Assembly (NCBI RefSeq): GCF_014202505.1
Contig: NZ_JACHGW010000002.1
Location: forward strand, 682,001 to 746,000
Source: Armatimonas rosea
GTDB lineage: Bacteria; Armatimonadota; Armatimonadia; Armatimonadales; Armatimonadaceae
Reading direction: 5' to 3'
DNA: 64,000 bases
Shown here: positions 23,822 to 29,302 of the stretch, in pieces
Numbering within the stretch: position 1 is the first letter of the stretch
How the letters are laid out: each line of letters begins with the position of its first letter
Program-made: the position numbers and the translations under genes
Notes under the pieces: model-generated
The model's database searches: none
Told to the model about the DNA's origin: nothing
Seen by the model: the letters and a program-made list of their open reading frames with translations, nothing else

Positions 23822-24547
23822 TTAGGAGGGCAAAGGCTGTGTGTAGTCCACCATGCGCTCGAAGCCACACTCATCGTAGGTGCGCTCGAAGACAGGCTGG
23901 AGGTCGATTTCCAGGTCGGGATGGGTCTCGTCGAGTGGCACGAGAACAGTCGGAAGTCTCTCTTGGATCGTCCAGGCCACGGCCTGAAAGCGCTGTCCAT
24001 AGCCGCCTCGGTGTAGGCTCGCCGCGTAGTCGAAAGCACCAAACCGTGCCCTGAGGCCACTCTGAGACGCGGCCAGTGTGTACTCGCCTGCGCGTAGCAA
24101 GTCAATCTCCAGCAAATGTACCTCGCTCTCCAGAAGCGTTTTTTGTTTGGCAAGGTACTCGTCGCGCCCTCGGCCTGCGGATTTATTGGAGTGGCTAAGT
24201 AGCTCGATCACGGTAAGCACACGCCGCTCCGGTGTGTTGTGGGAGTGAATCTCGATGAAGAGCTGGCGTACGGGAACCCCATCCTCGATCCAGTCCATAA
24301 ACTTGGAGGGTATTTCAGCGAGAGTTGCTCCCTCTGAAGGAGGCCCACCATGCCCAATGGCAACATCTGCCTCGAAGTGGCGAATACCTTCTTCGACAAC
24401 CAGGCGTTCTTCCATCCGAGCGGAAAAGCCTTGGGGAAGCTTGCGGTTAATCTCCGCACGCAGACAAAAGAGAAAAGCATTGTGAACGTCTGGCCAGAGA
24501 CTCCGACGCTCCAAATAGGGGTCCATTCCAGGAAACGGCGAGGGCAT
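23822..24547 (-). CDS. DUF4058 family protein (first copy)
   Basis: Protein of 241 residues with the DUF4058 hallmark MPSPFPGMDPYLE at its N-terminus, then LVVEEGIRHFEADVAI and LFIEIHSHNTPERRVLTVIE. The E-x-H/E-I and E-L-L-S pattern with K165-like lysine in YLAKQKTLLES is reminiscent of restriction-endonuclease-like folds such as Uma2/DUF820, but no function is established. ATG at 24547 is chosen because MPSPFPG is the family start and GGAGTG lies upstream. It is downstream of, and paralogous to, the next gene. Length is typical of the family. Confidence 0.88.
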   Translation of the reverse strand: MPSPFPGMDPYLERRSLWPDVHNAFLFCLRAEINRKLPQGFSARMEERLVVEEGIRHFEADVAIGHGGPPSEGATLAEIPSKFMDWIEDGVPVRQLFIEIHSHNTPERRVLTVIELLSHSNKSAGRGRDEYLAKQKTLLESEVHLLEIDLLRAGEYTLAASQSGLRARFGAFDYAASLHRGGYGQRFQAVAWTIQERLPTVLVPLDETHPDLEIDLQPVFERTYDECGFERMVDYTQPLPS

Positions 24548-24621
24548 AGCAAACACTCCTTTCACCATTTTATCGCTTCAATCACGAGCCGCTTCCAGCG
24601 CCTTGAGCCACCGTCCGAAAC

Positions 24622-25398
24622 TCACGGGAGACGTTCTGTGAGCCATGCCCTTGTTTCCTTGTCTACACCGGGTTCAGGGAGCCGGGAGTAGTCTACCAGC
24701 TCAGAGAAGCGGCCTTCGTCGTAGGCACGGGGCAGGAGAGGCTGGAGGTCTATCACGAGGTCGGGGTGCGGGTCTTCGAGGGGGATGAGAACGCCTGGAA
24801 GCTCGTGGGGGAGCTGCCAGGCGACCATCTGGAAGCGCCGTCCGTCGCGGGCGCGGTGCAGGCTGGCGGCGTAGTCGTAGCGTCCAAAGCGCTCTTTGAG
24901 GCTGGCTTCCGAGACCGCAAGGGTGTGCGGCCCGGCTCGAAGCAAGTCTATTTCCAGCAGGTGAATCTCGCTGGAGAGGAGATTTTTCTGTTTGCCAAGA
25001 TACTCATCGCGGCCCTTACCAGGAAGCTTGTTGGCATAGCTGAGCAGCTCGACCACCGCGACCACACGCCGCTGGGAGCCTTCGCGGGTCTGTATCTCGA
25101 TAAAGGTCTCTCGAAAGGGCTCACTCTCCTCAATGGCCCACTCCATCGCGAGTTTTGCGGGAGACTCGGCAATGGTCACGCCGCTCGACGGTGGGCCACT
25201 CTGCCCTACGGAGACATCAGCGACAACGTGACGAATGCCTTCTTCCACCACGAGGCGCTCCTCCAGACGCGAGGCAAATCCCGGTGGGAGCTGCTGGTTG
25301 ATAGCCGCGTTGAGGCAGTAGATAAAGGCGTTGTGGAACGCGGGCCAAAGCTCAGGGGCCTCCAAAAACGGGTCCATTCCGGGAAACGGCGAGGGCAT
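24622..25398 (-). CDS. DUF4058 family protein (second copy)
   Basis: Protein of 258 residues, a tandem paralogue of the gene at 23822. It starts MPSPFPGMDPFLEAPELWPAF and shares LVVEEGIRHVVADVSVGQ, FIEIQTREGSQRRVVAVVEL and GKGRDEYLGKQKNLLSSEIH with its neighbour. The first bases upstream of both starts are near-identical, with the same GGAGTGTTTGC ribosome-binding segment. The two are separated by 74 bp. Its leader is interrupted by a palindromic element, described separately. Function unknown. Confidence 0.88.
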   Translation of the reverse strand: MPSPFPGMDPFLEAPELWPAFHNAFIYCLNAAINQQLPPGFASRLEERLVVEEGIRHVVADVSVGQSGPPSSGVTIAESPAKLAMEWAIEESEPFRETFIEIQTREGSQRRVVAVVELLSYANKLPGKGRDEYLGKQKNLLSSEIHLLEIDLLRAGPHTLAVSEASLKERFGRYDYAASLHRARDGRRFQMVAWQLPHELPGVLIPLEDPHPDLVIDLQPLLPRAYDEGRFSELVDYSRLPEPGVDKETRAWLTERLP

Positions 25399-25414
25399 GG
25401 CAAACACTCCTTGA

Positions 25415-25606: not shown

Positions 25607-28600
25607 ATGGCATTTACCCCCCGAACCCGAGAAGAAGCGGAGAGCTACCGCCCCAACGAAGTGCTGGAGTGCACGATCGAGCGTGTGACCTACCACAACG
25701 AAGAGAATGGCTACGCGGTGCTCAAGGTCCTGCCCGCCGATGCTCGCGATAAAGTCAAGGCCGATGTGATTCCGGTGCTGGGCAACTTCTCCAACCCGGT
25801 AGTGGGCGAGAGCCTGCGTATCTTTGGCTGGTGGGACAAGCACCCCCAGCACGGCAAGCAGTTCAAGGCCGTCCGCTACGAAGTCATGCGCCCCGCCACC
25901 GCTGCCGCGATTGAGAAGTACCTTGGCTCGGGGATGATCAAGGGGATCGGGCCCAAGGCGGCGCAGTGGATGGTCAAGAAGTTCGGGGTCAAGACCCTGG
26001 AGGTGATTGAGCACCACCCGGACAAGCTCCAGGAAGTCAAGGGGATCGGGGAGAAGAAGGCGCTGATGATCCAGGCGGGCTTTATCGCCCAAAAAGAGAT
26101 CGCCGCCATCATGGAGTTTCTGATCGGCCACGGGATCACGCCCACCTACGCGGTCAAGATCTACAAGTACTACAAAGAGCGGGCTATCGAGCAGGTGGAG
26201 CAGAACCCCTACCAGCTCGCCACGGATATCTGGGGAATCGGCTTTCGCAGCGCCGACAAGATCGCGCTCAACCTCGGGATCACCTACGACGCGCCCCGTC
26301 GCTTGGAGGCGGGGATGGTCTATATCCTCAACAACGAGATGGAGAGCGGGGGCCACTGCTACCTGCCCCAGCGCGAGCTGATCGAGAAGGCCGCCGAGAA
26401 CCTCTACATCAAGTCCGCCGACGATCTCCCCGAGCACGACCAAGCCCACGAGAAAGCCCAGCTTGGGCAGAAGCTAGAGCCGGTTCTCGCCGACCTGATC
26501 CAGCGCGGTTTGTTAGTAGCGGAGACCATCGAGCTGATGGGTCACGAAGAGACCGCGATCTACACCCCCAGTTTCCACACCACGGAGAAAGCGGTCGCGG
26601 ACAGGATTCACCAGCTCCTCAACTCCCCGTGGCGCAACCGCCCCAAGCCCGCCGAGATCGACAAGATCCTCGAGAGCCTCCCCGGCCACGAAAAGCTCTC
26701 CGAGGAGCAAGACATGGCCGTCCGCCGGGCTTTAAGTGAGAGCGTCTTGGTGCTCACTGGTGGCCCTGGTTGCGGCAAGACTTTCACCACGAACTTTATT
26801 GTCCAGGCGCTGGAGAAGCTGGGGCGGCGGATTCAGATCGCGGCACCGACGGGGCGTGCGGCGAAGCGGGCGGCGGAGGTCTCGGGGCGGGAGGCGAAGA
26901 CGATCCACCGTTTGCTGGTCTTCGACCCGGAGAAGAAGGGCTTCAAGCACGGGCCGGGCGAGCCGCTGGAGCTCGATGTGCTGGTGATCGATGAGTCGTC
27001 GATGCTGGACCTGATGCTCACCCACAACACGATCCGCGCCATCCCCGACGGTGCCCAGATTATCTTTGTGGGCGATGTCGACCAGCTCCCCAGTGTCGGG
27101 CCGGGCAATGTGCTCAACGATCTGATCCAGTCTGGGCGGGTCCCCGTGGCGCGACTGACTCAGGTCTTCCGGCAGGCGGCGGCGAGCAAGATCATCACCA
27201 ATGCCCACGCGATCAACAAGGGGAAAGTCCCCGAGCTCCTGCCGCCTAGCGAGGCGAAAAACGGCGCGGACTGTGTCTTTATCGAGGTGGACGAGACCGA
27301 GGAGCTGCTGCAAAAGATCAAGGGAATTGTCGCCAAGAGCCTGCCGAACCTAGGCTTCAAGGCCGACGAGATCACGGTCCTCTCCCCGATGCAGCGCGGT
27401 ATGGTCGGGGTGCGCAACCTCAACGAGGAGCTGCAGAAGATCATCAACCCGCCCCATGCGGAGAAAAAAGAGCACCCACGCGGCGGCATGATCCTGCGCG
27501 AGGGCGACCGGGTGATGCAGCGGCGCAACAACTACGATAAGAATGTCTTCAACGGCGATGTCGGGCACATTGAGACGATCAATACCGAAGATCAAATGCT
27601 CATTGTGGACTATCCCGAAGGTCCTGTTGAGTACGAATTTGCCGAAACAGATGAGTTAAATCATGCCTTCAGTCTCACGACGCATAAGTGCCTGCATCCC
27701 GATGAGCGCATCCGAACGCAGCGTGGCCTGATCCCGATACGCGACATTCAAGCGGGTGATCTGGTGCAGACGGGCTTCGGCCAAAAGCGACCCGTGGTAG
27801 CACGTTTCGAGACAGGCGAGCGGCCCATTGTCGTCCTGAAAACGCGCTCCGGGCAGACGCTTCGAGTCTCACCGGAGCACCCGCTCTGGGCGATTCCAAG
27901 TGGCGAAAGCGCTGCTCTCTGGCGGACTGCGGGCGAGCTAGGAGTCGGCGATACTCTGGCGTTAGACCGCACGGTCTGGGAGAGTGCTAAAGAGCCAGAG
28001 CTCCCCGAAGTCGTTCCGCTCGTGGGGCGACCAAATGCCGAACTTCCCCGGGTGCCGTCTCAGATGGACGCAGAGCTGGCGTATCTACTTGGCCTGATTG
28101 TTGGCGACGGTTCGTACCGCGATCAGAAAGACGGAACGGTTGATCTGACCAGCATGGACACAGAGATTCAGGAAGCTTACGAGAAAACGCTGACAAGCTA
28201 CGGCTTGCGTGTGTGCCGCTACGCTCCCAAGGGGAGCCGGGCGATTCGCCTCTATGTTGTCTCGCGTGCGTTTCGAGCATGGCTTCTGGAGCTGGGGCTG
28301 GACTACGTCTCTGCAAGTGCGAAGCATATCCCCGAGATTATCTTCCGCGCCTCGACAAAATCCCGTGCGGCGTTTCTCCGTGGGCTTTTCGACACCGACG
28401 GTAGTGCAGGCAAGGAGGGCGGTAGTAATCGCTCCGTCCGTCTGGTCACAGCATCCCCGGAGCTTGCCGATGGGGTGCAGCAGCTCTTGCTCTCGCTAGG
28501 AATTGTCTCGAACCGTCGCCACTCCGCTGTTGCCGTGATGCTTGAGGTCAGCGGCCCCTCCCTGCCTGTTCTTGCCGAGCGTATCGGGTTTGGACTGGGC

Positions 28601-29302
28601 TACAAACAAGAGCGCTTGGAGAAGCTGGTGGCAAGCCAGGGAGAGGTTGGCAAGACAAACCGCGATACGATTCCCTTTGGTGTGTCGCTGGCGGAAGAGC
28701 TCTGGGGCGTCTTGAAGAAGCGCAACTGCCCGGAAGTGGCTCGCCTACGCTCGATCCTCTCCCGTGTCCGTCACGGAGTACTGCAGATGAGCTATCGGCA
28801 CTTGGGTGAGTGCCTGGCCTACCTGGAGCAAGAAGGCTTGCCAACTCCACCACGTGCTTGCCAGACGCTACGCCTGCACCACTACTTTGACCCACTGATA
28901 CGTGTCGAAAAGACGAGCGAAGTGGTTGATATGGTGGATATTGAAGTGGAAGGCATTCACTCGTTTGTGGCAGGAAGTGGCATGATTTGCCATAATTCCC
29001 AGGGTTCAGAATACCCTGCTTGTGTGATTATTTGCCATAATACGCACTATATGATGCTCCAACGTAACTTAGTATACACTGCTTTGACACGTGCAAAGAA
29101 ATTTGCGGTGATTATTGGGACGAAATGGGCGCTGAAGCGCTCCGTTACAAATAAGCATGTCCAGCCGCGCTACACAAGGCTCTCGCAGCGGCTTCAGAAT
29201 CTGGTTGAGGGACTGGGGACGAGCGGGCTACCTGGAGCGGCGAAGGCAGGGAAAGAGACGCGGGAGTTGCCTACGCCACCGATGCCTGGGCGGCTATTTT
29301 AG
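25607..29302 (+). CDS. recD2: RecD2-type ATP-dependent DNA helicase, interrupted by an intein
   Basis: SF1B 5'-3' helicase of the RecD2/YrrC type, involved in replication-fork and mismatch-related repair. The precursor is 1231 residues; removing the 436-residue intein leaves 795, near the usual size. The N-terminal OB-like region (LECTIERVTYHNEENGYAVL) is followed by helix-hairpin-helix repeats (GIGPKAAQWMVKKFGV, GIGEKKALMIQAG), Walker A TGGPGCGKTFTT near residue 385, DESS motif II (VLVIDESSMLD), and motif III VGDVDQLPSVGPG. The intein sits exactly in the C-terminal motif SLTTHK/SQGSEYP, inside helicase motif V/VI territory, so splicing is needed for activity. Motif VI is RNLVYTALTRAKK. Confidence 0.95.
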   Translation: MAFTPRTREEAESYRPNEVLECTIERVTYHNEENGYAVLKVLPADARDKVKADVIPVLGNFSNPVVGESLRIFGWWDKHPQHGKQFKAVRYEVMRPATAAAIEKYLGSGMIKGIGPKAAQWMVKKFGVKTLEVIEHHPDKLQEVKGIGEKKALMIQAGFIAQKEIAAIMEFLIGHGITPTYAVKIYKYYKERAIEQVEQNPYQLATDIWGIGFRSADKIALNLGITYDAPRRLEAGMVYILNNEMESGGHCYLPQRELIEKAAENLYIKSADDLPEHDQAHEKAQLGQKLEPVLADLIQRGLLVAETIELMGHEETAIYTPSFHTTEKAVADRIHQLLNSPWRNRPKPAEIDKILESLPGHEKLSEEQDMAVRRALSESVLVLTGGPGCGKTFTTNFIVQALEKLGRRIQIAAPTGRAAKRAAEVSGREAKTIHRLLVFDPEKKGFKHGPGEPLELDVLVIDESSMLDLMLTHNTIRAIPDGAQIIFVGDVDQLPSVGPGNVLNDLIQSGRVPVARLTQVFRQAAASKIITNAHAINKGKVPELLPPSEAKNGADCVFIEVDETEELLQKIKGIVAKSLPNLGFKADEITVLSPMQRGMVGVRNLNEELQKIINPPHAEKKEHPRGGMILREGDRVMQRRNNYDKNVFNGDVGHIETINTEDQMLIVDYPEGPVEYEFAETDELNHAFSLTTHKCLHPDERIRTQRGLIPIRDIQAGDLVQTGFGQKRPVVARFETGERPIVVLKTRSGQTLRVSPEHPLWAIPSGESAALWRTAGELGVGDTLALDRTVWESAKEPELPEVVPLVGRPNAELPRVPSQMDAELAYLLGLIVGDGSYRDQKDGTVDLTSMDTEIQEAYEKTLTSYGLRVCRYAPKGSRAIRLYVVSRAFRAWLLELGLDYVSASAKHIPEIIFRASTKSRAAFLRGLFDTDGSAGKEGGSNRSVRLVTASPELADGVQQLLLSLGIVSNRRHSAVAVMLEVSGPSLPVLAERIGFGLGYKQERLEKLVASQGEVGKTNRDTIPFGVSLAEELWGVLKKRNCPEVARLRSILSRVRHGVLQMSYRHLGECLAYLEQEGLPTPPRACQTLRLHHYFDPLIRVEKTSEVVDMVDIEVEGIHSFVAGSGMICHNSQGSEYPACVIICHNTHYMMLQRNLVYTALTRAKKFAVIIGTKWALKRSVTNKHVQPRYTRLSQRLQNLVEGLGTSGLPGAAKAGKETRELPTPPMPGRLF
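27689..28996 (+). mobile_element. Intein with LAGLIDADG homing endonuclease, in RecD2
   Basis: In-frame intein of 436 residues (precursor residues 695-1130). It starts with Cys in CLHPDERIRTQRGLIPIRDI (block A) and has RVSPEHPLW (block B, catalytic His). It ends with GIHSFVAGSGMICHN (blocks F and G; penultimate His, terminal Asn). The +1 extein residue is Ser. The two endonuclease motifs LLGLIVGDG and LRGLFDTDG both keep their acidic residues, so the homing endonuclease may be active. Insertion is between HK and SQGSEYP of the helicase motif, a conserved site of the type favoured by inteins. Confidence 0.95.

Follow-up and report, generated by a model that had tools for sequence, protein, structure and literature searches.

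A recD2 gene interrupted in frame

The window, as we call the whole 64,000-nucleotide stretch of Armatimonas rosea DNA analysed here, contains on its forward strand a 1231-codon open reading frame that runs without interruption from 25607 to 29302. Its product was assigned to RecD2 by NCBIfam (TIGR01448 helicase_RecD2, 3.2e-241, 802 bits, above the cut-off) and carries the domains OB_YrrC, HHH_RecD2, AAA_19/30, SH3_13 and UvrD_C_2, identifying the host protein as an SF1B helicase of the RecD2 type. The RecD2 portion comprises residues 1-694 and 1131-1231 of the precursor, which together give a protein of 694 + 101 = 795 amino acids. Between them lies an in-frame segment of 436 residues that begins with Cys, ends in MICHN and is followed by Ser. 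This segment separates SLTTHK from SQGSEYP at a point (HK/SQG) that we take, from general knowledge of SF1B helicases, to be motif V. The features are as follows:

25607-29302, forward strand: recD2 open reading frame, encoding the intein-containing precursor of 1231 amino acids
25607-27688, forward strand: N-extein, RecD2 residues 1-694, ending in SLTTHK
26756-26782, forward strand: Walker A region GGPGCGK/T, empty in the window; the junction 26779/26780 is the second-intein site of a congener (G001, below)
27689-28996, forward strand: class 1 intein of the LAGLIDADG type, 436 amino acids, precursor residues 695-1130
27689-27748, forward strand: block A with the nucleophile Cys1, invariant across all relatives
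27851-27895, forward strand: block B, with S61-P-E-H64 in the TxxH position
28085-28111, forward strand: first LAGLIDADG motif LLGLIVGDG (intein residues 133-141), catalytic D140; lost in the sister allele
28376-28402, forward strand: second LAGLIDADG motif LRGLFDTDG (intein residues 230-238), catalytic D237; DTDG has become DTNE in the sister allele
28919-28972, forward strand: block F, with D417 and H424
28973-28996, forward strand: block G, ending in H435-N436
28997-29299, forward strand: C-extein of 101 amino acids, the +1 Ser followed by QGSEYP (the remainder of helicase motif V) and the motif VI region

Two candidate junctions for a second intein in the window RecD2, IICHNT (C-extein) and LTHNT (motif II), were rejected, since relatives are uninterrupted there (VFHNQH and AIHTQH). 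Adjoining recD2 on the reverse strand (23822-25407) is a pair of similar, neighbouring genes that carry MPSPFPGMDP close to the start and are DUF4058-like by eye; at least one of them is also present in the sister species.

Anatomy and predicted fold of the insertion

An earlier note on this DNA had placed an intein with an intact homing endonuclease inside this helicase motif of RecD2. The translated reading frame bears this out in full: the boundaries are exact to the base, the length, the terminal residues and the +1 Ser are as described, and both LAGLIDADG motifs retain their acidic residues (D140 and D237), as expected of an endonuclease of this type. The residues of a class 1 intein are all present (C1, S61xxH64, D417, H424, H435-N436 and the +1 Ser), the one deviation being the Ser in block B in place of the usual Thr. 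Pfam recognized LAGLIDADG_3 (1.6e-23, in two stretches), Intein_splicing (4.5e-11, above the cut-off) and Hom_end, NCBIfam likewise grouped the segment with inteins and LAGLIDADG endonucleases, and the matches among PDB sequences were PI-PkoII, PI-SceI and V-ATPase inteins. As judged from sequence, the match to the family and the anatomy are far beyond chance.

A structure of the intein predicted by AlphaFold2 using nine same-site sequences reached a pLDDT of 88.1 and a pTM of 0.89, with both endonuclease half-domains folded. The solved structure closest to this model was the TliVMA intein (Z 31.8 over 321 residues); the Mtu RecA splicing domain matched its Hint fold (Z 20, rmsd 1.6-1.7 over ~130 residues), and I-Tsp061I and I-DmoI were among the structure matches to the endonuclease fold. 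TliVMA, PI-PkoII, PI-PfuI and PI-SceI likewise combine a Hint splicing fold with a two-motif LAGLIDADG endonuclease (Z about 20-32), but they differ in host protein and insertion site and are only ~20% identical to the RecD2 intein.

From the invariant residues and the fold, we propose that the 1231-residue precursor is translated and that splicing would then proceed through an N-S shift at Cys1, transesterification at Ser+1 and cyclization of Asn436 aided by His435, yielding the ligated 795-residue RecD2. Before splicing, motif V would be split and the helicase presumably inactive. The excised intein would be expected to cut intein-free recD2 alleles at the conserved HK/SQG codons and to be copied in by recombination. 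We favour, with a probability of about 0.92, the reading that motif V of a chromosomal RecD2 is occupied by a mobile class 1 intein whose LAGLIDADG homing endonuclease is apparently intact.

Empty and filled sites among Armatimonadota

Searching 291 Armatimonadota genomes with the RecD2 helicase core, we found the HK/SQG site uninterrupted in ~75 RecD2 genes (a hand count from the results table) and split in three: in the window genome, in a member of the same genus represented by a Lac Pavin metagenome-assembled genome (G001, record JAPLCP010000113) and in a member of another family of the same order (G017, JAFAZD010000102). The empty sites read HK/SQG in every case inspected, and RecD2 of D. 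radiodurans (3e1s) aligns unbroken across the site as VHRAQGSE, so that the insertion is precise with respect to intein-free homologues, as in class 1 inteins. Within the phylum these counts agree with the earlier note's impression that RecD2 inteins are uncommon; the host genomes are few and mostly metagenome-assembled, and a contig scan with two short peptide patterns found RecD2 inteins in only two Armatimonadetes records.

The three filled sites differ in the state of the endonuclease. The G017 allele (441 amino acids) is 47% identical to the window intein and keeps both DOD (LAGLIDADG) motifs. The G001 allele has only 243 amino acids: it has lost the first motif along with most of the corresponding half, and its second motif reads LRGLFDTNE. 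All splicing residues are kept in this decayed allele, and its Hint part is still predicted confidently. The neighbours on the G001 contig are those of the window (the MPSPFPGMDP gene, recD2 and prs), and we therefore regard the two recD2 genes as orthologous.

These comparisons bear on the suggestion that the segment is a normal, non-splicing domain of a RecD2 subfamily. Its open reading frame would suit such a domain, but the exact insertion between HK and SQG, the absence of the segment from all the uninterrupted relatives and the retention of every splicing residue even where the endonuclease has decayed make this reading hardly credible; the comparison with intein-free RecD2 proposed in the earlier note thus went against it.

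Excess divergence of the intein within the genus

The G001 and window inteins were compared over their ungapped first 104 codons, where they are 76% identical with a dS of about 1.1-1.2 (values above 1 being near saturation). By contrast, the exteins are 97-99% identical as protein, with a dS of 0.33-0.76, and the neighbouring prs has a dS of 0.51. Third positions differ at 51 of 104 codons in the intein versus ~178 of 795 in the exteins (p = 3e-8), corresponding to a divergence of 0.49-0.50 for the intein and 0.18-0.34 for the surrounding gene. Since the intein is more diverged than the gene around it, acquisition is suggested over plain vertical descent, and on the simplest reading of these sequences at least one of the two lineages would have acquired its intein from an outside source. 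A faster rate of change within the intein may also account for such an excess. When the flanks were inspected for a co-conversion tract, third-position divergence was higher in the C-extein (0.337), with no decay away from the junction.

The same data weigh on the idea that, in the window species, a working splicing domain accompanies an endonuclease that is already inactive, the intein being a fixed, vertically inherited passenger. The decayed allele of the sister species indicates that loss is under way in this genus, and motifs alone cannot reveal endonuclease activity. Against this, both catalytic Asp residues remain, the model shows two folded half-domains, and the excess divergence points to acquisition; we consider the passenger reading rather unlikely.

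A homing intein with an apparently intact endonuclease, the reading we prefer, also finds indirect signs in the patchy distribution and the excess divergence. Swithers et al., 2009 (PMC2814812) described the homing cycle and a preference for conserved sites, and the pattern in RecD2 agrees with both. After fixation, the endonuclease may decay, as in the sister species, and may be lost altogether, as in a phage mini-intein at the same site (see below). The states themselves are observed as sequence, and their order, from full-length through decay to mini-intein, is the one we infer. One genus and its relatives thus offer, for a single site, a comparison of alleles that are empty, full-length or decaying, and in phage also endonuclease-less: an unusually complete homing-cycle series at HK/SQG.

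A regulatory role was weighed as well, in which splicing conditional on redox state, metal or DNA damage would make the intein a switch for RecD2. The catalytic motif of a repair helicase is a setting in which regulatory roles are discussed (PMC5874633), and conditional splicing is reported for DnaB (PMC7360933). However, we saw no sign of selection to keep the intein, which the ~75 relatives do without, and homing together with the difficulty of excision is enough to explain insertion in a conserved motif (PMC2814812). We judge such a switch quite improbable.

Phage helicases with related inteins in motif V

The earlier note mentions neither the second intein site in RecD2 of the sister species nor the phage helicases that have related inteins at this motif. 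The best phage matches of the window intein occupy this same position in motif V of other SF1B helicases, namely PIF1/AAA_30 and Dda-like proteins: an intein in the helicase of Pectobacterium phage phiTE (GHK/C...HN/CQG), one in the gut phage fragment MT839817 (SHK/C...SN/SQG) and those of three IMG/VR contigs (L114, L117 and L118). The LAGLIDADG intein of the Certrevirus phages CB7 and phiTE (CB7_80, PMC7344957) belongs to the same clade and occupies the same HK/(C/S)QG point, but its host is a phage Dda/PIF1-like helicase, the +1 residue in phiTE is Cys, and it is 28% identical to the RecD2 intein; its presence in the helicase was noted previously (PMC7344957).

In a tree with 19 comparison inteins from GyrA, MutS, DnaB, RadA, SpoVR, SufB, IspG, RNR and others, built on an accurate alignment with the longest branch left out, the seven full-length HK/SQG inteins formed one side of a branch with support of 99/98 (97/96 in a smaller set). 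When the Walker A phage intein, whose branch is very long, was included, the same-site sequences were split in the best tree, and a single clade was not rejected (p-AU 0.286). By BLAST, an Armatimonadota MutS intein scored equal to the phage relatives. The plasmid matches among those listed were ~22-24% identical, and the one that was translated lies within a plasmid gene resembling RecA.

These results suggest a lineage that is probably tied to SF1B motif V. More tentatively, and at somewhat less than even odds, the lineage may be dedicated to this motif and move among chromosomal RecD2 of bacteria and the RecD2 and Dda-like helicases of phages. A single endonuclease specificity would then serve several helicase families via the shared protein motif, and phages would carry the element into Armatimonadota.

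A second intein site in RecD2

RecD2 of G001 carries a second intein, of 297 amino acids, in Walker A (GGPGCGK/C...HN/TFTT; L048:3365-4255). An intein occupies the same place in a further genome (G006, L050:3368-4570), in a gene whose frame is broken; the breaks fall in both intein and extein and look like sequencing error. Both sites are filled in the RecD2 (TIGR01448, 583 bits) encoded by a 258-kb viral contig (L106, IMGVR_UViG_3300005965_000002), which has a 353-residue intein with endonuclease in Walker A and a 153-residue mini-intein without endonuclease at HK/SQG. Inteins thus use two distinct RecD2 sites both in a bacterium and in a phage; together with the series of states at HK/SQG, this brings movement of a homing element between helicases of phages and bacteria within reach of a direct test. 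A common family for the motif V inteins and those in Walker A of G001 and L106 was unsupported (32 and 35 bits), and a quick look at recD2_1/recD2_2 of virus Rctr197k as a possible intein-split gene revealed no intein.

The P-loop inteins of DnaB, UvrD/PcrA, RecA and RadA (PMC5874633) likewise interrupt catalytic motifs, in ATPases of replication and repair, whereas the window intein lies in motif V; the P-loop type does occur in RecD2 of G001. The element itself is canonical throughout and of a well-known kind. Our search of the open literature (subscription papers and intein databases lay outside it) returned no report of a RecD2 intein, and motif V of RecD2 appears to be a host site undescribed there. 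The apparent novelty lies in the host gene and its insertion site, in the use of two sites by both bacterium and phage, and in the probable SF1B motif V lineage.

Other inteins in Armatimonadota

Two further inteins were seen in the window's own genome. One, of 371 amino acids, lies in IspG/GcpE directly before the conserved C of the GC(I/V)VNGPGE iron-sulfur motif (VVHN/CIVNGPGE; L002:1501-2613, G000:C3). The other, of 415 amino acids and the LAGLIDADG type, lies in Walker A of DnaB (GK/C...HN/T; L003:967-2211, G000:C2), a well-known intein site. A Hint domain near the end of a 3936-residue open frame with RHS repeats (L141, G000:C14:4402-4806, reverse strand) is more suggestive of autoprocessing than of an intein. 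In Armatimonadota, inteins were seen in numerous genes (L009, L010, L012, L013, L055 and L124): SufB, SpoVR, an AAA/R3H-type ATPase, RadA and MutS, with several more in GyrA.
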